This document shows positions 7,940 through 31,876 of a stretch of 46,005 nt of DNA, in pieces (position 1 is the first letter of the stretch; every line of letters begins with the position of its first letter). The DNA is from a virus. The translations under genes and the position numbers were made by a program. A model generated the notes under the pieces. It ran no database searches. It was not told the origin of the DNA and saw nothing but the letters and a program-made list of their open reading frames with translations. Location of the stretch: IMG/VR virus record IMGVR_UViG_3300033149_002637, positions 1 through 46,005 of that record. One strand, written 5' to 3'.

Positions 7940-7964
7940 TGTTGATTTTCCTTTCCTTTCCTTT

Positions 7965-13056: not shown

Positions 13057-13085
13057 TTGACGCCGAGAAATCTGTGTGGTATAAT
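13057..13085 (+). promoter_or_regulatory. Rightward sigma70-like promoter of the late block
   Basis: -35 TTGACG (13057-13062), exactly 17 bases, -10 TATAAT (13080-13085, perfect). Predicted start near 13092, about 23 bases before the first late gene, whose AAGGAG is at 13103-13108. Confidence 0.85.
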
Positions 13086-13775: not shown

Positions 13776-15599
13776 GTGCAGAACTTGAATCTAGCTACCA
13801 AAGACCTCCTGTTAATCCGCGCTGCATTAATGCGCAACTTTACTGTTGAACAGCTTGAGCGCACTGGCTTAATTAATGAACCAATTGATAGCCATATTGT
13901 TCGCCTTGCATTAGCAGCAGTTGATTTTGAGTTCTTTAAGCAGTTCTATCTTGGTCATCACTTCTATCTTCCATCCGCTGAGATGCACCATGAGATAACC
14001 AAAGAGATTGAGTACATCATCCGCACGAAGGGGAAAATCTACAGTGCGGTTGTATGGCCTCGTGGTTTTGCAAAAACAACAACGGTTACGTTAGCACTAC
14101 CTTTGTGGTGTGCACTTTTACGTAAGCGACGCTACATTCTAATTATCTCTGACTCACATGACCAAGCAAAACAACAGCTTGCAAATTTGCAGGACGAGAT
14201 TGAGAACAACGAACGTATACACGAAGACTTTGGTGACATGAAAGGTCGTGTATGGCAGCGTTCAGAGATTGAGCTTGCTAATCACGTTCGCATAGAAGCA
14301 CTTGGTTCTGGTATGAAGATTCGTGGGCGTAAGTATCTGCAATTCAGGCCAGATTTATTCGTGCTTGATGATATTGAAAACCTCAAGAGCGTTCAATCTA
14401 AAACACAGCGCGGGGCTACCTATGCGTGGCTCACACAATCAGTTATACGTGCTGGTTGGGATGACACTAAAATCTTTATTGCTGGTAACTTCTTACACTT
14501 TGATTGTATGCTAAAGCGCGTTGTTGCCAATCCTATGTTTAGGAGTAGGGTTTTTAAAGCGGTAGTTTCATGGGCTACGAATCAGGGTCTCTGGGATGAG
14601 TGGGAAGCTTTATTAACTAATCTTGGTGACAAAAACAAGAGTGAGACAGCACGTGCATTCTTTAATCTGCACAAAGATGAGATGCTTGAAGGTGCTAAGA
14701 GTGCTTGGCCAGAAGCTTACTCATACTACGATCTTATGGTTATAAAAGTCTCTGAGGGTGATACTTCATTCTCAACTGAGCTACAGAACGATCCAAGAGA
14801 CCCATCTAGGTGTATCTTTAATCGCTGGCACACATATAGAAAGGAGTATCGACCAAACAAGGATGGTGCACCTGAGCTTTGGCTGGTTCCTACTGGTAAT
14901 GGAGTAGCTACGCGCCTCATTGACTGCATGAAATTCGCTTTCACTGATCCATCACTTGGTAAAACAGCATCAGCCGACTATTCTGCCATAATGATTATCG
15001 CCAAAGCACCTAACAATCAAATGTATCTCCTTGAGTCTGATATTAAAAGACGTTCGCCAACACAATTAATGCTGGATCAAGATGCATGGGCGCGTAGGTA
15101 TACATTCTCTCGTTGGGGAATTGAGAGCAATCAATTCCAAGCCTTCTTTGCATCTCAATCAGCACGTGATAGCATGGCAAAGGGCACCAACATTCCATAC
15201 ATGCAAATACCTCAGTACGGTGATAAAAGTCTGCGCATCTCCACTTTGGAACCTGATCTAACGAATGGCTATTTGCTCCTACTTGAAGGTGGACAAACTC
15301 TTCTGAAGCAACAATTATCTGAGTTTCCAGTTGGTGCCCACGATGACGGCCCAGACGCTTTAGAGGGCTGCCGTACAATCGCACAGAAGTGGGCACCTAT
15401 TGCAAGCTCAGAAATACTACAATCAGAAGCATACAATTTTGGAAGACAAGAAGCATTTTATGGCCATAGGCGAATTAACATGCCTGATCCCTACGCTGAA
15501 CATGATGCACGTGCACGTGAGGTTGAAAATGAACGTAGAGCGGCACTAAAACTGGAACCCTTACCTGAGCCAGTATTTGTACCTCAAATGTTCTACTAA
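13776..15599 (+). CDS. terL: Terminase large subunit
   Basis: 607 residues, GTG start with AAAGG seven bases before. ATPase: Walker A-type WPRGFAKTTT at residues 94-103, followed by the YILIISDSHDQAKQQL coupling strand, and Walker B LFVLDDIEN near 193-201 (hydrophobics then Asp-Asp). Nuclease (RNase H fold): AFTDPSLGKTASADYSA near residue 388 supplies the first catalytic Asp, and DDGPDALEG near 523 the last. This is the motor that cuts and packages DNA into the prohead. The length and the motif set are typical. Lies between the putative small subunit and a metallophosphoesterase. Confidence 0.96.
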   Translation: MQNLNLATKDLLLIRAALMRNFTVEQLERTGLINEPIDSHIVRLALAAVDFEFFKQFYLGHHFYLPSAEMHHEITKEIEYIIRTKGKIYSAVVWPRGFAKTTTVTLALPLWCALLRKRRYILIISDSHDQAKQQLANLQDEIENNERIHEDFGDMKGRVWQRSEIELANHVRIEALGSGMKIRGRKYLQFRPDLFVLDDIENLKSVQSKTQRGATYAWLTQSVIRAGWDDTKIFIAGNFLHFDCMLKRVVANPMFRSRVFKAVVSWATNQGLWDEWEALLTNLGDKNKSETARAFFNLHKDEMLEGAKSAWPEAYSYYDLMVIKVSEGDTSFSTELQNDPRDPSRCIFNRWHTYRKEYRPNKDGAPELWLVPTGNGVATRLIDCMKFAFTDPSLGKTASADYSAIMIIAKAPNNQMYLLESDIKRRSPTQLMLDQDAWARRYTFSRWGIESNQFQAFFASQSARDSMAKGTNIPYMQIPQYGDKSLRISTLEPDLTNGYLLLLEGGQTLLKQQLSEFPVGAHDDGPDALEGCRTIAQKWAPIASSEILQSEAYNFGRQEAFYGHRRINMPDPYAEHDARAREVENERRAALKLEPLPEPVFVPQMFY

Positions 15600-15611: not shown

Positions 15612-16445
15612 GTGATTCATAGAAGCATCATTTTTGCTGACATACATGTGGGCAGTACCTCCGCTTTATGGCCGCCTGAACAGCCATTAAGTGGTGGTGG
15701 GAGATATGTACTTAACAAGAAGCAGGAATTCCTTTTAAAGTGGTGGGGAGATGCCACACGTCAAATCAGGAGGTTGAAACCGGATGTAGTTGTGGTGCTA
15801 GGTGATGTTATACAGGGTAAAAGTACCCGCGATGGACAGCTAGTCACCAATCGAAGTGATATTCAAAGGAGTGCAGCCTTTAAGCTGATGAGTCCGATAA
15901 GAGAAAAAGCCCACAAGTTTTTCATGCTCAGGGGAACACCATGGCATGAGGGTAAGGCGTCTGAAGATTCCTATGACTTAGCAGAGATGTTACACGCTGA
16001 GATGTGTCCTGAAACTGATGAAAGGCTTTTTTGGGAACTTTTTCTACGGCTTCCAGGTGGGAGTAAACCCGTCTTACACTTTACACATCACATAGGAGCA
16101 ACAAAGGTTTCCTGGTATGAAGCTACTGTACCGCTGAGAGACACTTTAATGCTGCTTTCAGAATTAGGGCGTTGGTATAAGAAAGAAGCTCCTGATGTTC
16201 GCTTGACAGTTCGTGCACACAGACACCGCTGTATTGGTGTCTTTATTGCGCCTGACATTCAAGCGTGGACTGTTCCTGCATGGCAGATGAAAACAGCCTA
16301 TGCACATCAAAAAGCTATAGTTACACTGCCACACATCGGTTATCTGATAGTAGAATGGGACGGAGATGACATTGTAGTGAAACCACGTATGCGTCCAGTG
16401 CCACCACCCAACATTGTAGATTTTCAGCTCAAAGGTGAGGAGTAG
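15612..16445 (+). CDS. Calcineurin-like metallophosphoesterase
   Basis: 277 residues; GTG start after AAGGAG. Metal-binding motifs of the calcineurin-like superfamily are in order: FADIHVG (Asp10-x-His12), VVVVLGDVIQG (GDxxxxG), RGTPWHEGK in the place of the GNHE/D block, FTHHIG, and RAHRHR (GHxH equivalent). The usual Asn-His of GNH is replaced by Thr-Pro-Trp-His, so substrate range may be altered. Such phosphoesterases are recurrent next to terminases in some phages; candidate activities are nuclease or phosphodiesterase in packaging or DNA end processing, none demonstrated. Confidence 0.85.
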   Translation: MIHRSIIFADIHVGSTSALWPPEQPLSGGGRYVLNKKQEFLLKWWGDATRQIRRLKPDVVVVLGDVIQGKSTRDGQLVTNRSDIQRSAAFKLMSPIREKAHKFFMLRGTPWHEGKASEDSYDLAEMLHAEMCPETDERLFWELFLRLPGGSKPVLHFTHHIGATKVSWYEATVPLRDTLMLLSELGRWYKKEAPDVRLTVRAHRHRCIGVFIAPDIQAWTVPAWQMKTAYAHQKAIVTLPHIGYLIVEWDGDDIVVKPRMRPVPPPNIVDFQLKGEE

Positions 16446-16475: not shown

Positions 16476-17249
16476 ATGTGTGATGTGACAATTATCGTGC
16501 CGACGTATGACACACCTGACTTTTTGAAACAGTGTCTATCAGCTATAGAGCGTAATACAGTCGCGCCTTACAAGATATTTGTTGTAGACGATAAAAGTCC
16601 ATCACTTGAAATGCGCAACCTCTTGCGGAGCATCAAAAGCAGATGTAGTGTTGCCAAGTCACGCATTCGTCGTGGCTTTGCTGGTATTAACAACTGGGCA
16701 GTGTCTCATACGAACACCAAATATGTGTGCCTTTTGAATTCTGACACTGAGCCTGGTTACATGTGGCTGACTTATTTGCTTGAAGAGCTTGATAATCATG
16801 AAGACGTTGGAATAGTTGGTGCAAAACTGCTATACCCACCACAAAAGGGCTACAGTTTGGGGGGTAGCATCCAACATGCAGGAGTTGCTCGTAATAAAGA
16901 GGGATTGCCATATCACATCTATGGCGGGCAGCCTTCAGACTTTCCAGCCGCTAATGTTCGCAGGGAGTTAAATGCTGTCACATTTGCGTGTGCACTTATT
17001 CGACGCAAGTTATGGGACGAAGTGGGCGGTCTTGACGAAGGCTACGTTATGGGTCAGTTCGAGGACATAGATTTTTGCAATAAGACACGACGCGCCGGTT
17101 GGAAAATCATTTATCAACCGAAGGCAACGCTCTTACATTATGAGCATGGTTCAGGTGATGAGTTTGTTACTAAGCACAGTCTACACAATCGAGATCGACT
17201 TATGAGCATTTGGGGTAATCTTGGATCGGATGAACACCTATTTGTTTAG
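16476..17249 (+). CDS. Glycosyltransferase family 2 (rhamnosyltransferase-like)
   Basis: 257 residues. The GT-A fold signature is complete: VTIIVPTYDTPDFLKQCLSA at the start, IFVVDDKSPS near residue 35, LNSDTEP near residue 85 (the DxD-type sugar-nucleotide/metal site), GGLDEGYVMGQFEDIDFCNK with the ED acidic pair near 190, and a closing RAGWKIIYQPKATLLHYEHG. This is the layout of GT2 enzymes that add sugars to glycan chains. First gene of the sugar cassette, 30 bases after the phosphoesterase. Cytosolic, no membrane segment. Acceptor unknown. Confidence 0.93.
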   Translation: MCDVTIIVPTYDTPDFLKQCLSAIERNTVAPYKIFVVDDKSPSLEMRNLLRSIKSRCSVAKSRIRRGFAGINNWAVSHTNTKYVCLLNSDTEPGYMWLTYLLEELDNHEDVGIVGAKLLYPPQKGYSLGGSIQHAGVARNKEGLPYHIYGGQPSDFPAANVRRELNAVTFACALIRRKLWDEVGGLDEGYVMGQFEDIDFCNKTRRAGWKIIYQPKATLLHYEHGSGDEFVTKHSLHNRDRLMSIWGNLGSDEHLFV

Positions 17250-17257
17250 GGGGAAAA

Positions 17258-18145
17258 ATGTTTAAGTTCTCTGTGATTATTCCGACGTACAATAGAAGAG
17301 AAAACCTCTACTTGACGCTTTGTGCTCTTGATAAAACATTGCTGCATTACAAGCATCCTGTTGAAATCATTGTCATGGACGATGGGTCTACTGACAACTC
17401 ACTTGAGGTAATGCATGAGTTCAGAGACAGATTTGCATTGCAATACCGCTGGCAGCCACATGATGGTTTCGGCGTAACGTCAGCGCGTAATCGCGGGTGT
17501 GCTATTGCGCGTGGAAAGAACTTCCTGTTTGTGGATTCTGACATATTGCTAACACCGGAGTCACTCGCTCATTTAAGCAACATAGTCAATGCCAATCCAA
17601 GCGTTATCATCGCTGGTCGCTACGACTGGATGCTGCCAATGCACATACGTCCGTATGATGTTTACCACAACTGGGACAAGATAATTGCCGGCACACTTCC
17701 TTCGGCACAGTTTGGTGGTGATCCAAAGGGTATTATCGGTGTAGACCCTCGGTATAGAGAAAATCCTGAAGTGTTTGACAGGCGTATTATTCAAACAGAG
17801 TATGCTTCGAAATTATACAGTGGCGTCTTGATGTTTCCAAAGGAAATCTTCTGGGAACTTGGTGGTTACGATGAGAAAATTAGGGCGCATGGTGGCTCAG
17901 ACTGCGAGATGGGCATTCGTGCACAGCTGGCAGGTTACAAAGCAATTTTCACCAGCTTGGTACATGGCTACCACGTGTATCACGATAGAAATCAATCTGC
18001 ACATCGTACAAGTGTCAAAGCTAATGTTAAATACATAGCGTCGAAGCATAATCTGAACAAAGTTGGTTTGCACGTGTGGCATGTTGGTGACGATTATGGC
18101 ATTTGCGAAAAGGGACATAGTCCATTAGCGAGGGAAGAATTGTGA
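17258..18145 (+). CDS. Glycosyltransferase family 2 (galactosyltransferase-like), copy A
   Basis: 295 residues. FSVIIPTYNRRENLYLTLCA, then IIVMDDGSTDNS, then ARNRGCAIARGKNFLFVDSD (the Asp-Ser-Asp of DxD near residue 92), and a C-terminal GGYDEKIRAHGGSDCEMGIR block with an acidic Asp-Cys-Glu. This is the GT2 plus GT27-type C-terminal domain seen in chondroitin-polymerase-like enzymes. Strong resemblance to the next gene throughout, including a shared RYDW-LPMxI-P-DV-H-W segment in the middle, so the two arose by duplication. Starts at ATG 17258 after GGGGG. Confidence 0.92.
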   Translation: MFKFSVIIPTYNRRENLYLTLCALDKTLLHYKHPVEIIVMDDGSTDNSLEVMHEFRDRFALQYRWQPHDGFGVTSARNRGCAIARGKNFLFVDSDILLTPESLAHLSNIVNANPSVIIAGRYDWMLPMHIRPYDVYHNWDKIIAGTLPSAQFGGDPKGIIGVDPRYRENPEVFDRRIIQTEYASKLYSGVLMFPKEIFWELGGYDEKIRAHGGSDCEMGIRAQLAGYKAIFTSLVHGYHVYHDRNQSAHRTSVKANVKYIASKHNLNKVGLHVWHVGDDYGICEKGHSPLAREEL

Positions 18146-18963
18146 AAGCAGTATCGTTCTCCTTTGTCATCCCAACATATAATCGTAAGCGAAATGTCTC
18201 TCTACTACTGCATGCACTAACCCTTCAGACTGACCAAGATTTTGAAGTCATCATTTCTGACGACGGTAGTACAGATGGTACAGAGAAAATGCTTCAGGCA
18301 TTTAGAGGGCGTCTACGTCTCAAATACCTTTGGCGCGAGCACAATGGATATCGTGTAAGTTTAGCACGTAATGAGGGAACTCGTCATTCTGATTCAAGTT
18401 CTACCCACATTTGGTTTCTTGACAGCGACATTCTCTTGAATAAACACGCTGTTGAATCCGCGCGTGCCCTTTGCACTCGTGAGCCTGATGCCATCATATG
18501 TGGTCGTTACGATTGGCTGCCACCTATGAAGATTACACCACATGATGTAGAACATAGATGGAATGTACTAACAACTGGGCGTTTACAAAGGATTAGCGTT
18601 GATTATCCTCACGAAACTGGTGTACGACCAGATCACAGGGGTACTAAGTATAAAGACAAGGGGCTTTACTTTGACTGTAAAACGCGCCGTAAAAGTGGTG
18701 GCACTCTGAGTGGAAATCTAATTGTGCCTAAAATCTGGCTCGCGCGCGGTTTTGATGAAACTATACATGGACAGGGACAAGATGGAGAGTTTGGTCATCA
18801 CATAAGCGATACACTTGGTGCTGAGTGTATCTTCTGTGACAAGATTGTAGGCTATCACATGGCACATTTTTGTGACAATGAGTGGCGAACCTCGTCAGTA
18901 AAAAGAACCATACGTTATATTAATGCTAAATACAGATTGCATGACACGTCAGCAAAGTGGTGA
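18142..18963 (+). CDS. Glycosyltransferase family 2 (galactosyltransferase-like), copy B
   Basis: 273 residues; GTG start overlaps the preceding stop as GTGA. VSFSFVIPTYNRKRNVSLLL, VIISDDGSTDGTE, SLARNEGTRHSD and WFLDSDILL give the GT2 core; RYDWLPPMKITPHDVEHRW and HGQGQDGEFGHHI repeat features of copy A. The second acidic motif here is Gln-Asp-Gly-Glu instead of Ser-Asp-Cys-Glu. The pair are tandem paralogues that probably add two related sugars or act on two acceptors. The predicted protein ends before the coupled methyltransferase. Confidence 0.92.
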   Translation: MKAVSFSFVIPTYNRKRNVSLLLHALTLQTDQDFEVIISDDGSTDGTEKMLQAFRGRLRLKYLWREHNGYRVSLARNEGTRHSDSSSTHIWFLDSDILLNKHAVESARALCTREPDAIICGRYDWLPPMKITPHDVEHRWNVLTTGRLQRISVDYPHETGVRPDHRGTKYKDKGLYFDCKTRRKSGGTLSGNLIVPKIWLARGFDETIHGQGQDGEFGHHISDTLGAECIFCDKIVGYHMAHFCDNEWRTSSVKRTIRYINAKYRLHDTSAKW

Positions 18964-18967
18964 AACA

Positions 18968-19537
18968 ATGAAACTAGACCTCACACAGAAATTAGAGAAT
19001 CCCCAAAAGTCTTGGGATGATGATTGGGAAAGGATTTGGACGTTCTATTACTGGCGTCTTCACAGTAACTACCGTGCAATGGAGCCTTTTTTACACGCGC
19101 CTGTTTTGGATGTAGGCTGCGGGCCTGGTTTTCTATCTGCACGTGTTTTCCCAAACCTCAATTGGTATACAGGTATCGACATATCACCAAAAGCGCTTGA
19201 GTATGGTAGGTTCCTATTCCCAGGCGCTCGTTTTGTGCTTGGAGACGTAGAACACAATCCGCTTCCGTTTAATGATAATGAGTTTAAAACTGTGGTCTGC
19301 ATGGAGCTGATAGAACACATTCAGGAGCACAATGTGTTAGTACCTGAGATGGTACGAGTAAGTAATGAGTACATCGCTTTCACGGTGCCAATTTCTATGT
19401 CTGGCGTCGGGCATATCCATCCAGTTTGGTCTGCTAATGACGTGTATCGATTTGCTTCCAAGATGGGTACTGTGTTGGAGATACATAGTTATCACGAAAC
19501 AAATCACCATCTTGCTTGGGTGAGGGTGAACAAATGA
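18968..19537 (+). CDS. SAM-dependent methyltransferase (class I)
   Basis: 189 residues from ATG 18968, four bases after the previous stop (an in-frame ATG at 18923 inside the upstream gene is rejected). Motif I is VLDVGCGPG at residues 46-54, with the acidic end of strand 2 at GIDISPKALEY and motif III-like DVEHNPLPFNDNEF; then CMELIEHI. This is the small-molecule class (UbiE/Methyltransf_11 type). Within a sugar cassette it most likely methylates a sugar or glycan hydroxyl or carboxyl group, but the substrate cannot be read from the sequence. Confidence 0.9.
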   Translation: MKLDLTQKLENPQKSWDDDWERIWTFYYWRLHSNYRAMEPFLHAPVLDVGCGPGFLSARVFPNLNWYTGIDISPKALEYGRFLFPGARFVLGDVEHNPLPFNDNEFKTVVCMELIEHIQEHNVLVPEMVRVSNEYIAFTVPISMSGVGHIHPVWSANDVYRFASKMGTVLEIHSYHETNHHLAWVRVNK

Positions 19538-20241
19538 AGCACGCTTCTTTGTGTGTGTTATCATTCAATCGGAAGGAAGTGATGGAGAGAAGCTTAAAAA
19601 CTCTTCAAGCTAACACACGTTATCCATACGAGTTGATTATCCTAGATGATGGTAGCAACAGATTTACACAGGAGTATCTGTTCAAGGTTGTGAGAGCACA
19701 CGCAGCAGCTACTGTACTATTTAATACAGACCGAAATCTCGGCATTGGAATTGCAGTTAATCGTGGCTTTCAAATCGCGCGTGGCGATTATCTGTTCAAG
19801 CTGGATGCCGACCTAATGTATAAGTCAGGTTGGTTAACCGAGTCAGTGCGTTTGTTGGAACAGCATAGAGAAATTGGCTGCCTCGGCTTGTTCAAGTATT
19901 GGCACAAGCCACGTATCTTTTCGGAGAACATCATCAATACCTATGCTGATTACTATGAAGTAGTAGATTTTGTGGGTTCTGCAATCGGGATGCGTCGTGA
20001 AATCTATGAGCAGTTTGGTGCTTGGCATGAACAGACACATACATTTGGTGAGGACAAACAATTCAAGATGAAAGTGCAAGCTGGTGGCTTTCAACTAGTG
20101 CTACCAAAAAATGACCTTGCAGAGAACGTTGGCTTTGGCGAGTATAAAACATCACTAATCAAAGAGGTGCATATGGAAACCGGGAAGCATGTCTACAATG
20201 CACCATATAAGGAACCCCTCATATTCGGAAAGGTGCGGTAA
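19534..20241 (+). CDS. Glycosyltransferase family 2
   Basis: 235 residues; ATG at 19534 overlaps the methyltransferase stop as ATGA. ASLCVLSFNRKEVMERSL, LIILDDGSN, ARGDYLFKLDADLMYKSGW (DAD form of DxD) and FGEDKQFKMKVQAGGF near 180 (the ED motif) define a GT2 enzyme with a short C-terminal tail. It lacks the GT27-like extension of the two preceding enzymes and has no membrane anchor. Donor and acceptor unknown. Confidence 0.92.
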   Translation: MKHASLCVLSFNRKEVMERSLKTLQANTRYPYELIILDDGSNRFTQEYLFKVVRAHAAATVLFNTDRNLGIGIAVNRGFQIARGDYLFKLDADLMYKSGWLTESVRLLEQHREIGCLGLFKYWHKPRIFSENIINTYADYYEVVDFVGSAIGMRREIYEQFGAWHEQTHTFGEDKQFKMKVQAGGFQLVLPKNDLAENVGFGEYKTSLIKEVHMETGKHVYNAPYKEPLIFGKVR

Positions 20242-20243
20242 TC

Positions 20244-21254
20244 ATGACAGACCAGTATATGCAGAATTATGTGCGCCCAAAAGGTGAACCCCGCGTTGCA
20301 TTTGTCTCTCGCTGGTACTACATATGGCCCGCATGCGGCGAGCTTGCACATGCGTATAGAGAATGGGCTACTACAATGGTGTTACCATTTCCGATAAAGG
20401 AAAAAGGTGTGCCATTTCAAAAGACCTATGAGGACATGATTACTTACTTCGATCCCCAACTATTACATCTTGGCCCAACTTACTATGGGAGCAATTACAT
20501 CAGCTATGATTTTCTGAAACGTTTCAAAGATGCAAAACCCTACCGTAAGATTATAGCCACTCACGCTGAGACCACAGTAAAGGGCAATCGCATGAGAACG
20601 TTCACTGAATTGCCTAAACTGGTAGACATTGTGTACACTTGTAGTCCATCACTTGTGAGGACAATCAAAAAAGCGTCAGGCTGTGATAATGTCAGGTTCC
20701 TGCCAACTGCTGTTGACCATGAGGCATATCATCCAGTTAATGTGAAAAAGCAATTTGATCTACTTTTCTTGGGTTATCCTGGTGGGGCTAAGAAATCTAG
20801 GGACAAAGTAATAGTTCAACTAGATAGGGATTTTGCTGACCTTTGGGTTGGTGGAGCTTGGTGGGAGCCTTACAATCTACGCCACACTTTCCCTGGTGCA
20901 TTCAGATCGCATTTCAATGAATGGAACTCACGTGCTCGAATTGGATTGTGCTTGATACCCGATGAGCACAAGACACTTGAGCAATATTACACATACCGCT
21001 TGACAAACACTATGGCGACACAAACCTTTGCGATGACGAGCTACACACCTGGATTGGAGAAACTGTTCACCCGTAAGGTGCACCTTGATTGGTACGAAAC
21101 TTACGACGAATTGGTTGCATTACTTAAATACTGGTTGTCGCATGACAAGGAACGTGAGCAAGTGGCTCGTCAGGGTAGAGAACATGTTCTGAAGCATTTT
21201 ACTCTTAAACAGCAAACACGACAGCTTTTGATGGATGTAGGAATAACAGTATGA
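20244..21254 (+). CDS. CgeB-like / GT-B glycosyltransferase
   Basis: 336 residues. N-terminal Rossmann-like half includes VAFVSRWYYIWPACGELAHA and IATHAETTVKGN; a switch segment FLPTAVDHEAYHPV (near residue 155) is followed by the C-terminal half with FDLLFLGYPGGAKKSRDKVI, LCLIPDEHKTLEQYYTYRL, a TYRLTNTMATQTFAMTSYTP segment corresponding to the family's donor-binding region, and a C-terminal helix with REHVLKHFTLKQQT. This is the CgeB/Glyco_trans_1_2 type of GT-B enzyme. The preserved LP-x-A-V-D-x-E-x-Y-x-P switch supports function as a glycosyltransferase. Coupled by ATGA to the ATP-grasp gene. Confidence 0.85.
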   Translation: MTDQYMQNYVRPKGEPRVAFVSRWYYIWPACGELAHAYREWATTMVLPFPIKEKGVPFQKTYEDMITYFDPQLLHLGPTYYGSNYISYDFLKRFKDAKPYRKIIATHAETTVKGNRMRTFTELPKLVDIVYTCSPSLVRTIKKASGCDNVRFLPTAVDHEAYHPVNVKKQFDLLFLGYPGGAKKSRDKVIVQLDRDFADLWVGGAWWEPYNLRHTFPGAFRSHFNEWNSRARIGLCLIPDEHKTLEQYYTYRLTNTMATQTFAMTSYTPGLEKLFTRKVHLDWYETYDELVALLKYWLSHDKEREQVARQGREHVLKHFTLKQQTRQLLMDVGITV

Positions 21255-22243
21255 ACATTTTGGTTACTGGTATAGGTGGTGGTGTTGGACAGAGTATTGT
21301 CAAGAGCTTACAGGACACCGAACATACCATCATTGGTGTTGATAGCGAAGTATTAGGCGCTGGGGTTTATGCTGTTGCAAAAGCATATAAAGTGCCTTAC
21401 GCGAACGCGCCTGGCTACATAGATAAACTATTAGAAATCTGTGATAAAGAAGAATGTGACATGCTCTTCCCAGGTCTTGATGCTGAGCTGCTGATACTAT
21501 CAGAGAATGCGAAGATGTTTCAAGACATTGGTACTTTTGTTGTTGTAAGCTCACCAGATGTCATTAAGATTTGTGATGATAAATTGCGTACTTCTTGGTT
21601 CCTGTTAGAGCATGGGTTCTATGCTCCAGAAACTTGGTCGCTAACAGATTCTGCTGTTTCCTATTTGAAATTTCCTTTGGTATTGAAGCCAATGAGGGGT
21701 GGTGCACGCTCTAAGGGTGTGTACGTAGTTAGAGATTTTGCGGAACTTTCTTATAGGCTTGCTACAATAGATATGAATAACTATGTTAAGCAGGAGTACA
21801 TTGCTGGCGATGAGTATACCTGTGGAAGCATTACAATCAATGGACGCTGTAGTGGTACTATTGTGATGCGCCGCATACTACGAGATGGAGACACATACAA
21901 GGCTTTTGTTGTGGCAGATCAAAGAATACACGACTATGTATGTGCCGTTGCAGATGCTTTGAAACCACTTGGCCCTTGTAACTTTCAACTAAGAATGAAG
22001 GGCGATCAACCGTACATATTTGAAATTAACCCCAGATGTTCAGGGACTACATATTGCCGTGCTTTGGCTGGTTTCAATGAGCCTCTAATGACTGTAGATT
22101 ACTTTGAAAGTGGTAGCCTCCCAACATACAAGATACATGAGGCAACCTTTTTGCGTTACTGGTCAGAGTTGATGGTGGAAAATATTCGTGTTGACACGTT
22201 TCGAGAGTGGGGCGTGTTGAAGAACTATGATGGAAGGTTATAG
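21251..22243 (+). CDS. ATP-grasp enzyme, carbamoyl-phosphate-synthase-like
   Basis: 330 residues. A Rossmann-type start (ILVTGIGGGVGQSIVKSL, FPGLDAELLIL) precedes the ATP-grasp: KFPLVLKPMRGGARSKGVY supplies the lysine that holds the ATP phosphates, YVKQEYIAGDEYTCGSI the adenine pocket, and FEINPRCSGTTYCRA the magnesium-binding Glu and Asn. Family members ligate a carboxylate to an amine or thiol. In an amino-sugar cassette it may amidate or acylate a sugar or peptide (inference). Start overlaps the CgeB-like gene; ends before an epimerase. Confidence 0.9.
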   Translation: MNILVTGIGGGVGQSIVKSLQDTEHTIIGVDSEVLGAGVYAVAKAYKVPYANAPGYIDKLLEICDKEECDMLFPGLDAELLILSENAKMFQDIGTFVVVSSPDVIKICDDKLRTSWFLLEHGFYAPETWSLTDSAVSYLKFPLVLKPMRGGARSKGVYVVRDFAELSYRLATIDMNNYVKQEYIAGDEYTCGSITINGRCSGTIVMRRILRDGDTYKAFVVADQRIHDYVCAVADALKPLGPCNFQLRMKGDQPYIFEINPRCSGTTYCRALAGFNEPLMTVDYFESGSLPTYKIHEATFLRYWSELMVENIRVDTFREWGVLKNYDGRL

Positions 22244-22256
22244 TGGGGGTTGTTTG

Positions 22257-23171
22257 ATGAATGTTGTGGTTACAGGGGCTACGGGCTTTATTGGGCTTCA
22301 TTTGGTGAAATCTTTGCTGCTGAATGGCCATGAAGTTACTGCTGTGCTGCATGAACGCAATATACCAGCATATATGATGACGGATGCGTTGCATGTAGTT
22401 TGGGGCGACCTAGAGCGTCTTGAATCTGTGCACGATGCTGTGGCGCACTCAGATGTGGTTTGTCACCTTGCTGGTTTTATACCACCAAAAATGCAATCTG
22501 CATGGTATGCCAAGGAGTGCTTGCTTTATAATAGTCTATTCACACTTGAGGTAGCTAAGTTTGCTAGTGAAAATGCTACTCGCTTTATTTTACTATCATC
22601 AGGACAGATTTATAAATATTCAGCAACACCAGTTTCAGAGGATGCTCCTGTGCACCCTGTCGAGTATGGTGCATATTATCTTGCAAGTAAATTGCTCAGT
22701 GAGCTCTACGTTGAGCATTTGCAATTCGAGCGTGCACTGCCTACGTGTATACTGCGCATAGGAAACTGCTATGGCCCTGGTATGAAGGCCAGCTCGGTTG
22801 TGTCTTATTTCATGCAATGTGCTGCTGCTGGTCAACCATTAACTGTTTTCTATAATGGAACGCCGACACATGACTTTGTGTACGTGGATGATGTTGCTGA
22901 TGCTATTGTATCAGCAGTGCAATCTGGGGTGGTGGGTATTTATAACATTGGTTCTGGTTGTGCTACGTCCTTACAGGAGTTGGCTGAAACAGTTGTGGAG
23001 GTGTATTCAGATAAAGACATTTCCGTTGAAGTTGATTCTACAGATGCACATGTGTCTAAGGGTTTTTCAGCATTGTCGATTGAGAAAGCGCGTAGGGAGT
23101 TGGATTATTCTCCTCGGTCATTGAAGGATGGGCTATCTCTGTATCGACGGCAGTTGGAGAGAAACACGTGA
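22257..23171 (+). CDS. NAD-dependent sugar epimerase/dehydratase (extended SDR)
   Basis: 304 residues from ATG 22257. The cofactor site is GATGFIG at residues 7-13, the DL of GDLERLES and HLAGF follow, and the active-site YxxxK is Tyr141-Leu-Ala-Ser-Lys145, with the catalytic serine in ILLSSGQ upstream. RIGNCYGPG, HDFVYVDDVADAIV and YNIGSG complete the extended SDR pattern of NDP-sugar 4-epimerases and 4,6-dehydratases. It would supply a modified NDP-sugar to the glycosyltransferases. Which reaction is catalysed cannot be settled from motifs. Overlaps the aminotransferase by four bases (GTGA). Confidence 0.93.
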   Translation: MNVVVTGATGFIGLHLVKSLLLNGHEVTAVLHERNIPAYMMTDALHVVWGDLERLESVHDAVAHSDVVCHLAGFIPPKMQSAWYAKECLLYNSLFTLEVAKFASENATRFILLSSGQIYKYSATPVSEDAPVHPVEYGAYYLASKLLSELYVEHLQFERALPTCILRIGNCYGPGMKASSVVSYFMQCAAAGQPLTVFYNGTPTHDFVYVDDVADAIVSAVQSGVVGIYNIGSGCATSLQELAETVVEVYSDKDISVEVDSTDAHVSKGFSALSIEKARRELDYSPRSLKDGLSLYRRQLERNT

Positions 23172-24328
23172 GAAACCTTGCAGTCTTCGGTGGACAGCCT
23201 ACATTTAAAGAGCCTTTGCACGTAGGGCGTCCTAATCTTGCGCGAACATCTGAACTCATAAGCGCATTCAGGGGAATACTTGAGAGCAAATGGCTCACCA
23301 ATGATGGTTGGTGGGTTCATGCACTGGAGGGTGAGATTAGACGTTATCTGAATGTGAAGCACTGTGTTGTTGTGGCCAACGGAACGCTTGGCCTTGAAAT
23401 AGCAGCTAAGGCACTTATGCCAAAGTGTGGGGAAGTCATCATGCCTTCGTTCACATTCGCAGCAACGCCACATGCGCTTGCTTGGCAAAGATATAAGCCC
23501 GTTTTTGCTGATATTAATCCAACGACTCATGTTCTCGATCCGGTTGATGTAGAATCTCGAATCACTGATGCCACTGTTGGTATCCTTGGTGTACACACAT
23601 GGGGAACCCCATGCGAGATAGAGGCACTGACTGCGATTGCTGTGAGGCATAGCCTGCCACTCTTTTTCGACGCTGCACATGCGTTTGGATGCAAATATAG
23701 AAATCGCAGCATTGGTAACTTTGGACGGTGTGAGGTGTTCTCTTTTCATGCCACAAAGTTCTTTAACACTGTTGAAGGTGGTGCAATCACGACGAATGAT
23801 TACCAACTGGCTAAAAGACTTCGAGAACTGCGGAACTTTGGCTTCGTTGGTGATGGGACGCACACAACAACAGGTATTGGTATTAATGCTAAAATGAGTG
23901 AGTTACATGCTGCTGTTGGAGTGATGAATCTTGCAGAGATTACGTCGTTCGTCGATCGTAACTTTGTGAACTATGTGAATTATAAATATAATTTAACGAA
24001 TTGTGATTTGCAGGTTTACCAGCAAGAAGGTGGAAATTATCAATACGTGGTTGTTGAGTTGTTGAGCAATGCACTATCAGCGGATGTTTTAGTCAAAGTG
24101 CTACAAGCCGAGAACATCATGGCACGCCGTTACTTTTCACCACCTTGCCATAAGATGACTCCTTATAATCAGGAGGGGAGTTATTTGCCAAACACTGAAA
24201 CTGTCTCGAATCGTGTTTTCGTTCTCCCAACTGGCATGTCGGTTAGACAGCAAGATGTGGATAAGGTTTGTGAGATTATCCTTTATTGCATTGAACACGC
24301 GGGGGAGATTATGGAGAAAGTGATATGA
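23168..24328 (+). CDS. DegT/DnrJ/EryC1-type sugar aminotransferase (PLP)
   Basis: 386 residues, GTG start. Pyridoxal phosphate lysine is Lys197 in FHATKFFNTVEGG; the cofactor Asp is in FFDAAHAFG; NGTLGLEIAAKAL near residue 68 binds the phosphate, and FGGQPTF plus LTNDGWWVHALE open the fold as in the DegT/StrS family. These enzymes make NDP-amino-sugars from 3- or 4-keto-sugars, using an epimerase/dehydratase product like that of the previous gene. The pair together imply an amino sugar. It ends by overlapping the portal gene by four bases (ATGA), the clearest sign that the sugar genes are co-translated with capsid genes. Confidence 0.95.
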   Translation: MRNLAVFGGQPTFKEPLHVGRPNLARTSELISAFRGILESKWLTNDGWWVHALEGEIRRYLNVKHCVVVANGTLGLEIAAKALMPKCGEVIMPSFTFAATPHALAWQRYKPVFADINPTTHVLDPVDVESRITDATVGILGVHTWGTPCEIEALTAIAVRHSLPLFFDAAHAFGCKYRNRSIGNFGRCEVFSFHATKFFNTVEGGAITTNDYQLAKRLRELRNFGFVGDGTHTTTGIGINAKMSELHAAVGVMNLAEITSFVDRNFVNYVNYKYNLTNCDLQVYQQEGGNYQYVVVELLSNALSADVLVKVLQAENIMARRYFSPPCHKMTPYNQEGSYLPNTETVSNRVFVLPTGMSVRQQDVDKVCEIILYCIEHAGEIMEKVI

Positions 24329-25752
24329 TAGATGCACCCAAGAAGGCTAGCTTTGTTGGACGTGTTGTGACGCGCATTCGAAGGCTTCTAGCTTCACCGC
24401 TTGTTCCTGAGTCACAGCCCACAAGTGCCATTGGCGTTGTTGATGACACATTAGATAGACTTTCAAATCTCTTCATGAACATCTCGACCAAGAGAATTAA
24501 TGTCTACATTGACGTGGAGGAAATGGACGAGACTGTTGATGAAGTGACAGCAGCCCTTGACATCATGGCTGATAACGCTGTGAACTCAGAGGAAGGTGCA
24601 GGTCACTCATTTGTCCTGCATTACGTCAACGTGCCAGATACCCTAAAAAACAACATCGAACTGATGTTGAAGAAAACTAGATGGGCAGAGAAGGCATACT
24701 CATTTGCTAGACAGACTCTCAAATATGGTGACTGTTTTGTGCAGTATGTCTTTGACAAGCAATTCAACATCGTGCGCCTGATGGATATGCCTGCAAGTAC
24801 TATGAAACGATACGAAGATGCGCAAGGTCTGCTGTTGAATGGTAATAAGCAGGGCGAGGCTGCTTTTGAGCAGTGGATTAATGGTGGTATGAGATTCGTT
24901 GCTGGTTTTTATCCATGGCAGATAGAACACATGCGTTGGAACCGTGCAGGTAGTTCAAAGTATGGAACTTCTTTACTCTATACGGCTCGCACTGCATGGA
25001 AGAAGTTACAGGCGATGGAAGAGGCATTGGTCATCAATTGGCTCACTCGTGCTTTTGCTCGTCTTCTCTTTATCATTGACACAACTGGTAAAGGGCCACT
25101 TGAGTCTCAGAAGGCCATTGCGGATTTTAAGAGAACGCTGAAGACGCGCCAAGTTGCTACTGATACAAAGGGCGCACAGCAAATTTCCGTTGTAAAAGAC
25201 ATCTACATTGCCAAGTCACACCGAGAGATGGGTGGTCGTGTTCAAGAAGGTTTAACCGATGTTAAGGTACTCGATACTAGCAATACTGGTTTCTGGAACC
25301 TGTCAGCGATTGAATACTATCAGAACAAAATAATTACATCGCTGAAAGTTCCAAAAGCACATCTTGGTATTGAGCGTGACATCAATGCCAAAGCTACTTT
25401 GCAGCAACAAGATCGTCGGTTTGCACGTTCTGTTAGACGTGTACAATCTATGTTGAGTCAATCAATTCGACATACAATTACATTGCAGTTGTTGATGTGG
25501 GGACTTGATCCTACTGATGTTGAGTACAGAGTTGTTTGGCCCGCTCCCAGTTGGGAAGATGAACAGGAGAAAAGTATAACAACGAAAAACTACATTGATG
25601 CTGCTGCGGTTGCACTGAAGCTGGGATTGGTTGACCACAACTACGTCCGTCAAAATTGGCTAAGCATGTCACAGAAACAGTTGAAGGAACTTGAGGGAAT
25701 AGAGAATAACGTCGAACCAACACAGACACCAGAATCAGATAATGAGGAGTGA
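24325..25752 (+). CDS. Portal protein (T4 gp20-like)
   Basis: 475 residues, coupled to the aminotransferase. The N-terminal region has ISTKRINVYIDVEEMDETVD and VTAALDIMADNAVN, the block that opens gp20-type portals, followed by SAYSFARQTLKYGDCFVQYV-like strands, FYPWQIEHMRWN, SSKYGTSLLYTARTAWKKL (the helical clip region with a conserved YG-S), and a C-terminal helix with an acidic tail. The portal is the dodecameric ring at the unique capsid vertex through which DNA enters and leaves. Position before the protease and capsid genes is as expected. Confidence 0.82.
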   Translation: MIDAPKKASFVGRVVTRIRRLLASPLVPESQPTSAIGVVDDTLDRLSNLFMNISTKRINVYIDVEEMDETVDEVTAALDIMADNAVNSEEGAGHSFVLHYVNVPDTLKNNIELMLKKTRWAEKAYSFARQTLKYGDCFVQYVFDKQFNIVRLMDMPASTMKRYEDAQGLLLNGNKQGEAAFEQWINGGMRFVAGFYPWQIEHMRWNRAGSSKYGTSLLYTARTAWKKLQAMEEALVINWLTRAFARLLFIIDTTGKGPLESQKAIADFKRTLKTRQVATDTKGAQQISVVKDIYIAKSHREMGGRVQEGLTDVKVLDTSNTGFWNLSAIEYYQNKIITSLKVPKAHLGIERDINAKATLQQQDRRFARSVRRVQSMLSQSIRHTITLQLLMWGLDPTDVEYRVVWPAPSWEDEQEKSITTKNYIDAAAVALKLGLVDHNYVRQNWLSMSQKQLKELEGIENNVEPTQTPESDNEE

Positions 25753-27395: not shown

Positions 27396-28574
27396 ATGGC
27401 AAATATTATAATGCCACTTGGTACAACTTATGAGGACTATCAAGCTGCACAGGAAGCGTATGTTGATTCACTGATTGATAAGTGGGAGTTTTTCTTAGGG
27501 GAAGGTACTAAGAAGCATCCTCTTAAACCAATTCCTAGAAATCTGTGGCGTGCAATGGCTATCATCTTTGAGAATCAGTCCATTGCGAGCACCAGGGGTG
27601 CGATGTCTGAGCAAACTTTGACAACGGATGTTACGCTTCCTGTCAAGTATGCTCTGCCCATTGTACGAGATGTGTTCCCACAGCTTATTATTTCTAAGAT
27701 TGCATCCATTCAGCCTCTACCAATGAGTTCTGGTGGGACTGGACAGGTGTTCTATCTCGACTTTCTTAGGGAAGATGTGACGCCTAACACTAATGTTACG
27801 AGTCAAGATAGCGACTACGCATTCTCTCTTGAGAATGAGGTACCTCGCAGGCTTAAGATGACCGTTGAGGCAGAAACTCTAACAGCTACAAAGGACATTC
27901 TTGCTGCAACTTGGTCTACTGAAGTTCAGGAAGATGCCCGTGGTGCTATTGGTCTTAATGTTCCTGCTGAATTGGTATCTGCTTGCGGTAGCGAAATTCT
28001 CCGAGAGCTTGAACAAAGAATGCTCAACGAAATTCTTGCTGGTGCAGGTGCAGGTAATGTTAATTGGAGTTGGACTGTTCCGACTGGTTACACCACTAAG
28101 GAATGGTACGAGACTTTGCATCACGCTTTCATCGACGCACAAGCCCTGATCTATAACAATAGATACCGTAATGCCGACTGGATTATCTGCGGCGTTAATC
28201 TTGCGGGTTATGTTATGAAGGGTGCAGACTTTACACCTCTTGAGCGTATGGTTCCACCTGGGCCGCAGCTTTCCGGTGTGAGACTTATTGGCACAAAGAC
28301 GGGCTTCTGGGACATCTACATGACCCCATATATCAACACCAACAAAGCAATCATGGGCACATATCCAAGGAGCACTATCGATACTGGTTATGTGTTTGCT
28401 CCATACATCCCACTTGCTGCAATGCCACTTGTGTATGCAGACTTCCGTGAGCGTGGTCATGCGCGAGAGGGTGCTTATGAGAATAAAGACAAATGGTCGA
28501 GAAATGTACGCACAAGAAACGCAAAAATGATGGTGGTATCGTCTATGTACGCTACAATCACCATTTCTGCATAG
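27396..28574 (+). CDS. Major capsid protein (T4 gp23-like, HK97 fold)
   Basis: 392 residues, with an AAGGAG ribosome site. Conserved blocks: LPIVRDVFPQLIISKIASIQ followed by PLPMSSGGTGQVFYLDF near residue 90-115, which is the E-loop/N-arm region of gp23-type capsid proteins; then LEQRMLNEILAGAGAGNVNW, NADWIICGVNLAGYVM, and a C-terminal WDIYMTPYINTNKAIMGTYP typical of the A-domain. Position after the scaffold and before head-tail genes agrees. Forms the icosahedral shell. Good candidate for the protein that the adjacent glycosyltransferases modify. Confidence 0.85.
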   Translation: MANIIMPLGTTYEDYQAAQEAYVDSLIDKWEFFLGEGTKKHPLKPIPRNLWRAMAIIFENQSIASTRGAMSEQTLTTDVTLPVKYALPIVRDVFPQLIISKIASIQPLPMSSGGTGQVFYLDFLREDVTPNTNVTSQDSDYAFSLENEVPRRLKMTVEAETLTATKDILAATWSTEVQEDARGAIGLNVPAELVSACGSEILRELEQRMLNEILAGAGAGNVNWSWTVPTGYTTKEWYETLHHAFIDAQALIYNNRYRNADWIICGVNLAGYVMKGADFTPLERMVPPGPQLSGVRLIGTKTGFWDIYMTPYINTNKAIMGTYPRSTIDTGYVFAPYIPLAAMPLVYADFRERGHAREGAYENKDKWSRNVRTRNAKMMVVSSMYATITISA

Positions 28575-28608: not shown

Positions 28609-30471
28609 ATGCGAGTACGGAACACTACTGCTATAACGCAAATAGCACCTGGTGGGAGCCGTTTAGACCCAGCAGTTTGGTTAGCGGTTCCCACGCAGGT
28701 ATCCTACGCAGATGCAATTTGGATGCTTACTCGACGCATGGCGGATATTAATGAAGTAGAAGACAGTGAAGATTTACTGTGGAAACAGGGCAATCAAACT
28801 CATCTTTATTGGCTTTCACCATTTTCAATGGGAGATGGTTATGGTACTGCTGCTGAGAACATGATTCTGGCTCTAACAAAGTTGGGCGTTAACTTGTTTG
28901 TGCGTCAGTGTTGGTTCCTAGATAGAACAGCATTAGATGACATTACCCGTGCAAAGCTCAACGAGCATATAACCGAACTTTATCGTGTCGGTATTTGTAT
29001 GGCAACGCCGGGTGAGTTCATAAAGTTGCCTACGGCTTTTAGGATTGGCTTTACGATGTATGAATCAAGTGAGCCACTTAAAATCCATCCTGAGTGGCGA
29101 CATGATTGCTACAATGTTGATATGCTTGTAGTCCCTAGTGAATTCAGCAAGGAAGCATTTAGTAGTTTTGTGGACGTTCCAATTGAAGTTTGTCCACTTG
29201 CACTTAATGAGTTATACATTAAGCCAACACGCAGGAAACCAAAAGCAGATGGAAGTTTCAAGTTCGTTTGTTATGGCACATTAACTGGGAGAAAAGCACC
29301 TCTTGAGCTTATGGAGGTTTTCACACGTGCCTTTCCAATTAAACAGTATCCAAACGTGCGAATGGAATTCAAAACGCGCCTTGGGATATTTGGTTGGGGC
29401 GAAAATATGCTGCCCGACATTACAGACCCTCGTGTGGTTATTCATAATGGTGATTGGTTCCCGAATCAAATGCTGGCGTGGTTACTTGATGCAGATGCAA
29501 TGGTTTTCCCATCAAAGGGAGAAGGTTATGCGCTACCTCCACGAGAAGCAATGGCTACGGGCTTACCAACTATCTTTGCTGCGAATACTGGAATGCTTGA
29601 CTTTGTAAATGATAAGTATAATTGGTCTGTTCCTACGCATCACACTGAGGATTCGCCACTTGGAGGTGTTTGGCATATTCCAGATTGGGACAATCTGGCT
29701 GATGTAATGCTTAACGTTTATCACAATCAGAAGAAATCATTTGATAAAGCATATCGTGGAGCAAAGTGGTATGCTTCTGAATTTGGCCCACAGAATGCTG
29801 CAAAGAGGTTGGTATCTATCGTAAATAATCTTGATCCATCTACGAGTAGTGTGCGCCGACTACGGAAGCCTAGTGAGTTGCATATTGATGAGCATCAGCC
29901 ATTTATAGACCTTTTGCAGCGCAACTTAGCACCTAACTCTGTGATTTGGGATATTGGTTTAGGCTCACAGAAAATTCATAGAAGGCTTCGTGATCTAGGC
30001 TTTCAAGTATACGCTCTGGTTGACGACAGTGATGACGTTGACACGTCTGGCGTAGAGATGCACGCCGCGTGTAATCTTATGAGTGAACAGCGGGATGGTT
30101 TAATTCGTTTTGGTTTGCCAGCAGCAGATGCTTGTATTTTCTGCTGTAATCTACAAAGGTTCAGCGCAGAGGAAATACGAGTTCTTTTGCTTAAAGCCCT
30201 TGATTTCTCCAATACGCCTGGTTCTTCAAAGAGCGGCAAGGTCTTCTTCAATGTGCCTTCTGTGTACTTTCCACAGTTTTATGATAAGCGTTCGTCTTTG
30301 ATGCGGGAAACACAATGGCGCAGGATATTGAAGCGGTTTGTTTACAAATTAACTCCGTATGGTGAAGACAAGCGCTTCTTCATGTTCAGTGTACTTGGAG
30401 AGGACAACAGTTCCGCAGCCTTTTACGTGCGTAATCTAGGTAGGGTATTGCAAGGAGTTTGGCACGCATGA
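28609..30471 (+). CDS. GT4 glycosyltransferase fused to a methyltransferase-like domain
   Basis: 620 residues. Residues about 65-400 are a GT-B/GT4 enzyme: LYWLSPFSMGDGYGTAAENM, VVPSEFSKEAFSSFV, FVCYGTLTGRKAPLELMEVF (donor-binding G-x-R-K), and MVFPSKGEGYALPPREAMAT with the family's E-x7-E pair (GEGYALPPREAMA). Residues about 420-620 include NSVIWDIGLGSQKIHRRLRD, which resembles a degenerate SAM motif I (DIGLGSG-like), and a C-terminal GEDKRFFMFSVLGEDNS. The function of the second half is uncertain because no other SAM motif is clear. Located between the major capsid protein and head-tail genes, and coupled to another GT2. Confidence 0.78.
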   Translation: MRVRNTTAITQIAPGGSRLDPAVWLAVPTQVSYADAIWMLTRRMADINEVEDSEDLLWKQGNQTHLYWLSPFSMGDGYGTAAENMILALTKLGVNLFVRQCWFLDRTALDDITRAKLNEHITELYRVGICMATPGEFIKLPTAFRIGFTMYESSEPLKIHPEWRHDCYNVDMLVVPSEFSKEAFSSFVDVPIEVCPLALNELYIKPTRRKPKADGSFKFVCYGTLTGRKAPLELMEVFTRAFPIKQYPNVRMEFKTRLGIFGWGENMLPDITDPRVVIHNGDWFPNQMLAWLLDADAMVFPSKGEGYALPPREAMATGLPTIFAANTGMLDFVNDKYNWSVPTHHTEDSPLGGVWHIPDWDNLADVMLNVYHNQKKSFDKAYRGAKWYASEFGPQNAAKRLVSIVNNLDPSTSSVRRLRKPSELHIDEHQPFIDLLQRNLAPNSVIWDIGLGSQKIHRRLRDLGFQVYALVDDSDDVDTSGVEMHAACNLMSEQRDGLIRFGLPAADACIFCCNLQRFSAEEIRVLLLKALDFSNTPGSSKSGKVFFNVPSVYFPQFYDKRSSLMRETQWRRILKRFVYKLTPYGEDKRFFMFSVLGEDNSSAAFYVRNLGRVLQGVWHA

Positions 30472-31049
30472 GTACTGAAAGGATTCATGACTCTAGCTTG
30501 CACATGCTTGTAAAGGATGAGATTGACCTTTTACCGCGCTTGCTAGAATACATCAATGAATGGGTTGATGAAATTATCATTGTGGATACCGGTTCAACTG
30601 ATGGTACTCTTGATCTGGTAAGGAAGTATACACCAAACGTTTTTCAAATGCCACTTAATCGTAACTTTAGTGCTGCACGTAATTTTGGTTTATCAAAAGC
30701 AACGAAGAGCTGGATTTTTCATTTGGACGCTGATGAGCGTCCGACGGAATCCCTTCTGCTATGGTTAACACGTTTTGTTGGGCGTAGAGCGAGTACATTA
30801 TATGATGGAGTATCTATACACAGACACAATCTTGTAGGTGGCAATCCAATAGGGCGTGCAACGCATGAAAGACATGTACGATTTTTTCGCAATACAGCGT
30901 GGTATAGATTTGAAGGTCTTGTGCATGAGCACATTAATGTGCCAGAAGCTTTGGTATTGGATGCTCCACGTGAACTGCTGATTGAGCATTATAAAACTGT
31001 GGAACGTCAGAATATGCAAAATGCTTTTTACGAAACCTTGAAGGAGTGA
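30468..31049 (+). CDS. Glycosyltransferase family 2 (SunS/WaaE-like)
   Basis: 193 residues from ATG 30468, which overlaps the stop of the previous gene as ATGA. HMLVKDEIDLLPRLLEYINE, EIIIVDTGSTDGTLDLVRKY and FHLDADERPTESLLLW show the GT2 core with DAD as the DxD; FEGLVHEHI is the family's motif near the end. Short relative to usual GT2 enzymes (about 240 residues), ending in a plain helix (MQNAFYETLKE). Related enzymes add sugars to lipopolysaccharide cores or, in SunS, to cysteine of a peptide. Together with the fusion upstream it forms a second, capsid-proximal glycosylation pair. Confidence 0.88.
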   Translation: MSTERIHDSSLHMLVKDEIDLLPRLLEYINEWVDEIIIVDTGSTDGTLDLVRKYTPNVFQMPLNRNFSAARNFGLSKATKSWIFHLDADERPTESLLLWLTRFVGRRASTLYDGVSIHRHNLVGGNPIGRATHERHVRFFRNTAWYRFEGLVHEHINVPEALVLDAPRELLIEHYKTVERQNMQNAFYETLKE

Positions 31050-31183: not shown

Positions 31184-31876
31184 ATGTTGTTAACCGAGAT
31201 TACTCAAAGGTTTAACGATATGATTACAACTGAGGTGGTAGCAGCAGACCGTTTAAACAGGTTTATATCCGCTGCTGTAGACTACTACAGTCGATATAAC
31301 CCCATCATAACTGCTATGACTATTGATGTAGTTGAAGATCAAACCCTATACGACTTGCCATCTGATTGCACAACCGTCATTAGTTGTTACTGGTGGCCTT
31401 TGGGCGAATTATTTGCAGAGTTGCGTGCAGGTGCAGAGCAGACTTTTATGCTACATAGACCAGCACGCTATCATCTAATCTCTGAGCGTATTATAGATGA
31501 CATCACTCAGGGTGCATATCTTGAGCGTGTGGTAGGTTACTGGGAGCAAAGGAACAAGCAAATATATGTTGCACCTGAACCAACTGTTGCTGATGAAGAC
31601 GGTTTGGTATTGTTATACGCTGCAAAACACAGCCTAAATGCTGATGGCACCGGTTATGACAACATCCCTGATGAGGACTTAGGTATTTTCACCGATCTAG
31701 TGCTTGCAGAGTTCCTGGGGAGTAAGAGTGCTGAAGTGGCCTGGGAGCCTGACTATTCGGAGGGACAGTCTCGTGTTGCCAAGCACTTTATACCAAAACA
31801 GTTGCGTGAGCACATTACGGCGCTACGCAACGGGGTGCGTGACAAATACAGTGCAGTGGGAATCGCGGTGGGATAA
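31184..31876 (+). CDS. Head-tail connector / adaptor-like protein
   Basis: 230 residues. Begins LLTEITQRFNDMITTEVVAA then DRLNRFISAAVDYYSRYNPI, an N-terminal pair of helices resembling the adaptor (gp6/gp15-like) that docks beneath the portal, followed by a beta-rich middle (LYDLPSDCTTVISCYWWPLG) and a C-terminal helix (REHITALRNGVRDKYSAVG). Position after capsid and before tail genes fits a head completion role. No diagnostic motif; call by layout and size. Confidence 0.6.
   Translation: MLLTEITQRFNDMITTEVVAADRLNRFISAAVDYYSRYNPIITAMTIDVVEDQTLYDLPSDCTTVISCYWWPLGELFAELRAGAEQTFMLHRPARYHLISERIIDDITQGAYLERVVGYWEQRNKQIYVAPEPTVADEDGLVLLYAAKHSLNADGTGYDNIPDEDLGIFTDLVLAEFLGSKSAEVAWEPDYSEGQSRVAKHFIPKQLREHITALRNGVRDKYSAVGIAVG

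Follow-up and report, generated by a model that had tools for sequence, protein, structure and literature searches.

The DNA studied here, referred to below as the window, is the complete IMG/VR record IMGVR_UViG_3300033149_002637 (46,005 bases, linear ends). On its plus strand, at positions 16476-24328, nine intact and collinear genes for sugar biosynthesis and glycosyl transfer form a cassette between the terminase and phosphoesterase genes on the left and the gene of a T4-type portal protein on the right (Table 1). Profile searches placed each of the nine enzymes in one or more specific Pfam families at a score exceeding the curated cut-off, and the gene order and the strand given in a first-pass annotation were confirmed. 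The block measures 7.85 kb and is thus smaller than the ten-kilobase scale named there. The genes had also been described as mostly coupled by 4-base overlaps; with refined starts, such overlaps make up five of the ten junctions between the phosphoesterase and portal genes, the rest being gaps of 2-13 bases apart from the 30 bases that precede GT2a, the first of the glycosyltransferase (GT) genes. The last gene, coding for the DegT-type aminotransferase, does overlap the portal gene as claimed, by the 4 bases ATGA. Since the G+C content of the cassette and the head genes is the same (0.42-0.46), the composition gives no mark of a recent arrival.

The aminotransferase aligned over its full length with DesI (PDB entry 2po3) at 315 bits, the next PDB relative reaching 147 bits. 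This alignment covers the lysine motif, and the Lys197 noted in the first pass is present within FSFHATKFFNTVEGG. The DesI model TIGR04427 was the best NCBIfam match, yet the score stayed under the equivalog cut-off (405 vs 650 bits), therefore the enzyme is labelled DesI-like and not DesI. The product of DesI is dTDP-4-amino-4,6-dideoxyglucose. The window shows no dTDP-glucose 4,6-dehydratase, thus the precursor of such a sugar must come from the host; a family search for RmlC was likewise negative. The SDR protein (motifs TGATGFIG and YLASK, with SSGQIYKY from residue 124) had been assigned as an epimerase/dehydratase. On inspection, its sequence has no D-E pair after the catalytic Ser/Thr, the mark of the 4,6-dehydratases, which makes an epimerase or a reductase more likely than a dehydratase, and the label is changed to epimerase/reductase. 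The ATP-grasp enzyme exceeded the cut-off of NCBIfam model NF009402 (308 vs 218 bits), and the searches of viral sequences found no relative of it among other viruses. The PF13524 GT-B enzyme has no sequence relative in the PDB.

Related contigs, all of them metagenomic, add a further activity to this pathway. A hexapeptide acyltransferase is carried by G001, G002, G010, G017 and G021, and those of G001 and G002 match the PDB entries 3vbi-3vbp, which we take to be AntD of anthrose synthesis, at 1e-31 to 1e-33, the next family being at 1e-9. The occurrence of the DesI-like aminotransferase together with an AntD-like acyltransferase in the relatives points to a pair for the synthesis of N-acylated 4-amino-4,6-dideoxyglucose, in line with the amino-sugar pathway proposed earlier. 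AntD acts as an N-acyltransferase in D-anthrose synthesis, according to the account in PMC8141488 (citing Kubiak and Holden 2012). In the window no AntD-like acyltransferase accompanies the aminotransferase in the cassette, and the ATP-grasp enzyme is found there instead. ATP-grasp ligases are a family coupling carboxylates to amines, and the enzyme of the window may take the place of the acyltransferase. The suggestion of additional acylation and methylation fits this chemistry, the role of the ATP-grasp enzyme in it being a prediction.

In ten contigs holding both the terminase and the portal gene, the slot between the two is filled mostly by sugar genes; the filled slots span 7.2-11.1 kb where contiguous, and several of these contigs are near-duplicates. 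Since the orthologous gene order recurs in independent contigs, a chance arrangement can be discounted. In four contigs the slot is empty, and the terminase and portal genes overlap by 25-28 bases. The cassettes fall into at least three well separated groups of a portal tree, the base of which is left open. In two of the lineages with an empty slot, genes for methyltransferases, radical-SAM-like proteins and GTs occur elsewhere in the head region, upstream of the terminase in G014 and between GT2e and the adaptor in G005. Radical SAM/SPASM-type genes of empty-slot relatives, accompanied by methyltransferase and GT genes close to the head genes, lie at L078 (2588-3436) and L009 (9908-10831), and their products may also modify the virion.

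The left end of the cassette is constant, GT2a and GT2b recurring in the close relatives, and the DesI-like aminotransferase stands at the right end in many of them, while the middle varies. The interior of the window consists of the ATP-grasp and SDR genes, without an acyltransferase. In place of the hexapeptide acyltransferase, G003 encodes another DegT type, close to PseC/ArnB, along with a GNAT protein that has a PseH-like score. G021 has a PseB-like dehydratase. G004 encodes a protein of the reversibly glycosylated polypeptide family, the UDP-arabinopyranose mutase family, together with an SDR protein (by profile and by the listing of open reading frames); G003 also has a gene resembling the former, judged on its first residues. 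A PF03214 protein (137 bits) was observed near an SDR gene in a phage sugar cassette (L050, 13446-14417, minus strand), which suggests an arabinofuranose donor. In G021 the cassette runs across the two ends of a record that closes into a circle. The G021 and G010 records end in exact repeats of 114 and 50 bases, respectively, and thus probably represent whole genomes, about 65-69 kb in size. Across the clade the sugar genes are thus kept with the head genes, and the loss of the cassette from all close relatives, which the first-pass annotation had named as an outcome speaking against it, was not observed. A search for relatives by the terminase returned one locus only. No host was assigned, as genome_contigs gave no capsid relative and the relatives of the aminotransferase, at most 49% identical, came from many phyla and were without synteny.

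The sugar genes extend further than had been annotated: two additional GT genes, GT4x and GT2e, lie between the capsid and the adaptor genes. A search with the capsid alignment gave 31 loci, of which 24 were testable (capsid identity at least 48% and more than 300 bases downstream), several of these being near-duplicates. GT4x is the next gene after the capsid gene in all 24, its start lying mostly within about 65 bases, and is followed by GT2e in most relatives. Two distant capsid relatives (21-26% identity) have no GT4x behind the capsid gene. The GT4x protein has 620 residues, with a small N-terminal domain and a C-terminal methyltransferase-like domain, and passes the Pfam GT4-conflict model narrowly (27.4 vs 26 bits); its N-terminal and C-terminal parts searched alone gave no Pfam match. 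The region of the EX7E motif (KGEG...PPREA) is invariant or nearly so among 18 aligned sequences. The structure predicted from these sequences (mean pLDDT 83.8) matches retaining GT-B enzymes; the closest PDB structure is 3oy2, a glycosyltransferase of chlorovirus NY2A, at a sequence identity of only 14%, and the viral matches of the model include phage, giant-virus and archaeal-virus glycosyltransferases. An earlier model built from 8 sequences (pLDDT 53) was discarded. The C-terminal third of GT4x (29821-30471) resembles S-adenosylmethionine (SAM) methyltransferases, with a glycine motif that some relatives retain but the subclade of the window has lost.

Table 1. Positions of the cassette, of neighbouring late genes and of other features; coordinates are those of the window unless a contig is named.
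Feature	Position	Strand	Basis and remarks
Terminase large subunit	13776..15599	+	PHROG 38, tblastn; left border of the slot
Calcineurin-like phosphoesterase	15612..16445	+	Borderline Pfam score; in G003 (76%) and G004 (48%)
GT2a, GT2 glycosyltransferase	16476..17249	+	Pfam; first sugar gene of the cassette, conserved in close relatives
GT2b, GT2 glycosyltransferase	17258..18145	+	Pfam; galactosyltransferase-like C-terminal motif
GT2c, GT2 glycosyltransferase	18142..18963	+	Pfam
SAM methyltransferase	18968..19537	+	Pfam; start refined to ATG at 18968
GT2d, GT2 glycosyltransferase	19534..20241	+	Pfam; start refined to ATG at 19534
GT-B glycosyltransferase, CgeB-like	20244..21254	+	PF13524
ATP-grasp ligase, carbamoyl phosphate synthase-like	21251..22243	+	Pfam, NF009402
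SDR nucleotide-sugar epimerase/reductase	22257..23171	+	Pfam, motifs; start refined
DegT/DnrJ/EryC1/StrS aminotransferase, DesI-like, K197	23168..24328	+	Pfam, NCBIfam, PDB alignment
Portal protein, T4 gp20 type	24325..25752	+	Profile match; right border of the slot
Major capsid protein, Gp23 family	27396..28574	+	Profile match; candidate acceptor
GT4x, GT-B (GT4-type) glycosyltransferase	28609..30471	+	Profile match, model; behind the capsid gene
GT2e, GT2 glycosyltransferase	30459..31049	+	Profile match; after GT4x in most relatives
Head-tail adaptor, SU10-type	31184..31876	+	Profile match; right border of the second sugar slot
HNH endonuclease sites	32951-33715; G001 (L002) 7400-8194, 14850-15599; G002 (L068) 404-961 and portal-protease junction
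Promoter-like site, TTGACG-17-TATAAT, extended -10	13057..13085	+	Just 5' of the rightward late operon; position suggestive only

The cassette evolves about as fast as the head genes and is under purifying selection. The ratios of non-synonymous to synonymous substitution rates (dN/dS) against G001 were 0.085 for GT2a, 0.064 for GT2b and 0.066 for the aminotransferase, and 0.079 for the terminase. These three cassette genes are kept across deep divergence (portal identity 51-83%), and the motifs of the enzymes are intact. One HNH endonuclease family (54-61% identity) occurs at different junctions of the late operon, including the borders of sugar cassettes, and homing by these endonucleases may drive the exchange of the cassettes. 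A comparable arrangement was found in G025, a contig of an unrelated lineage with an XkdF protease and a Phage_capsid_4 capsid. Here a 13.5-kb sugar cassette lies in the contig's own head operon, between a portal-like gene (without Pfam confirmation) and the XkdF protease and capsid genes, and it includes genes 42-64% identical to counterparts in the window or in G003.

The first-pass annotation had proposed an amino-sugar glycan made during virion assembly, most likely on the capsid or tail; as a whole this interpretation is partly supported and plausible. We consider it probable that the virion carries a glycan made by the phage itself, the capsid being the most likely acceptor. The arguments for the virion as target are those of context, namely the constant capsid-GT pair, the placement in the head operon and the similar cassette of the unrelated G025. 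The best reading is an N-acylated 4-amino-4,6-dideoxyglucose-type glycan, made by a conserved initiation pair with an exchangeable donor and extension module. We infer the sugar, the acceptor, the order of the steps and the purpose as follows. GT4x and GT2e would start the chain on a head protein, and the terminase-portal cassette would supply the rare sugar and extend the chain. The aminotransferase would convert host dTDP-4-keto-6-deoxyglucose to dTDP-4-amino-4,6-dideoxyglucose, the amine of which would be capped by an amide, through the AntD-like acyltransferase in the relatives and the ATP-grasp ligase in the window. The methyltransferase is predicted to O-methylate the sugar, and the SDR enzyme to make or epimerise a second donor. 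Sugar transfer by the soluble GT2 and GT-B enzymes would take place in the cytoplasm while the head is being assembled. Exchange of the cassette interior between phages would give different coats to related phages, and the glycan could serve particle protection, altered adsorption or shielding.

Several points weigh against the virion glycan. The glycan is predicted here from genes on metagenomic contigs to which no host was assigned, and the late-operon position could reflect timing only. Some relatives have no cassette, thus it is not essential for the head, and the 4,6-dehydratase must be host-supplied. The AntD label is provisional, the record name of the 3vbi-3vbp entries being 'galactoside O-acetyltransferase', and the dN/dS values are rough, available for the computable genes only and obtained at a dS of about 2, near saturation.

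Alternatively, the target of the enzymes might be the host surface, altered late in infection so that, for example, released progeny do not adsorb to debris or other phages are kept out. Many of the GT2 matches are indeed exopolysaccharide and O-antigen enzymes, and phage GtrB-type PHROGs score weakly. However, the Wzx flippase family was not found (polymerase families were not searched), no cassette protein has a hydrophobic or transmembrane segment, and no integrase for lysogenic conversion was found. Since the genes are moreover embedded among head genes, with the core GT locked behind the capsid gene, we regard a host-surface role as unlikely. Hypermodification of the phage DNA with sugars against restriction seems somewhat less likely still. 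DNA-hypermodifying phage glycosyltransferases are known (as related in PMC12619734, citing Pyle 2024), and the narrow match of GT4x to the GT4-conflict model would agree with such a role, but the thymidylate synthase/hydroxymethylase family was not found in the window, itself a fragment, or in nine related records, including the closed G021. Methylation, N-acylation and at least five GTs would also be excessive for a base, and the linkage is to capsid genes and not to replication genes.

Soluble cytoplasmic enzymes could act on anything, hence also on non-virion proteins or small molecules such as host enzymes or defence signals, their place in the operon serving late expression. The sugar genes are, however, tightly linked with head genes not only in several subclades but also in a lineage unrelated to them, and the capsid-GT4x pair is constant, which makes this very improbable. 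The sugar genes could also be hitchhiking cargo of little function, carried about by homing HNH endonucleases; the presence of one HNH family at several late-operon junctions in G001, G002 and the window would agree with this. The intact motifs, the low dN/dS and the retention of the aminotransferase, GT2a and GT2b over deep divergence leave it hardly credible.

A virion glycan made by the phage itself would have parallels in known systems. The mycobacteriophages Che8, Corndog and Myrna carry glycans on capsid and tail-tube subunits and have their own glycosyltransferases, as reported in PMC12619734 and PMC12363180 (citing Freeman et al. 2023). The window likewise has phage-encoded glycosyltransferases with a GT linked to structural genes, here deduced from the genes only; what differs is the T4-type capsid, the swapped interior of the cassette and a set of seven GTs accompanied by a nucleotide-amino-sugar pathway, a methyltransferase and a ligase. 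We know of no nucleotide-amino-sugar pathway in the mycobacteriophage glycosylation systems. The viosamine of the Mimivirus fibrils is synthesised by an aminotransferase and an acetyltransferase that the virus encodes, their genes being clustered with those of GTs and of a candidate methyltransferase (R141/L136/L142/R132 for Vio4NAc), and the sugars of Megavirinae are clade-specific (PMC10117803). The cassettes of the window's clade similarly group an aminotransferase, an N-acyltransferase, a methyltransferase and several GTs. However, Mimivirus is a eukaryotic giant virus with a UDP-linked route and its own 4,6-dehydratase, whereas the window belongs to a tailed phage with a DesI-like (dTDP) aminotransferase and no dehydratase found in the window. 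In the chloroviruses PBCV-1 and NY2A the major capsid protein is glycosylated by virus-encoded enzymes (PMC5408694, PMC7826918); the GT4x model is nearest to NY2A 3oy2, but the virus class is unrelated. Bacterial anthrose and viosamine clusters (AntD; the Vio island of P. syringae, as described in PMC10117803) have in common with the chemistry predicted for the cassette 4-amino-4,6-dideoxyglucose, N-acylation, O-methylation and GTs. Their products, however, are bacterial glycans, and the nearest bacterial neighbourhoods of the aminotransferase show no synteny with the window. Arthrobacter phage KellEzio has a GT4-like protein, gp28 (23% identity), between capsid and tail genes, but it is the single GT of that stretch, with no sugar pathway there, in an actinobacteriophage head-tail operon.

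Some other features were recorded. N6/N4 DNA methylases are encoded at 285-1154 (minus strand) of the window and at L064 6408-7148; in G021 one lies inside the sugar cassette. The late gene at 40198-43308 encodes 1036 residues, the C-terminal end of which gives a weak sortilin/Vps10-like match, and its product is probably a tail or adsorption protein. L135 (2850-7373, minus strand) encodes a 1507-residue fusion of an ATP-dependent DNA ligase, a D12 adenine methyltransferase and an XkdF-type prohead protease. In the promoter and terminator scans the number of sites was not above that of shuffled sequences.

Phage virion glycosylation is known; a swappable, donor-making cassette in the head operon is new. 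Tentatively, and with somewhat less than even confidence, we propose serotype-like coats for one clade of tailed phages and for at least one lineage unrelated to it: a fixed, capsid-locked initiation GT, combined with an exchangeable sugar-synthesis and extension cassette in constant slots within the head operon, would give chemically different virion glycans to close relatives, much as O-antigen loci do in bacteria and glycan clusters in Megavirinae. If this is true, phages make and vary the glycans of their particles using rare bacterial amino sugars, and the capsids of close relatives would differ in antigenicity, stickiness and recognition. The capsid-linked GT with its swappable cassette would then offer direct genetic access to the role of virion glycans in phages, which the mycobacteriophage work has raised as a question.

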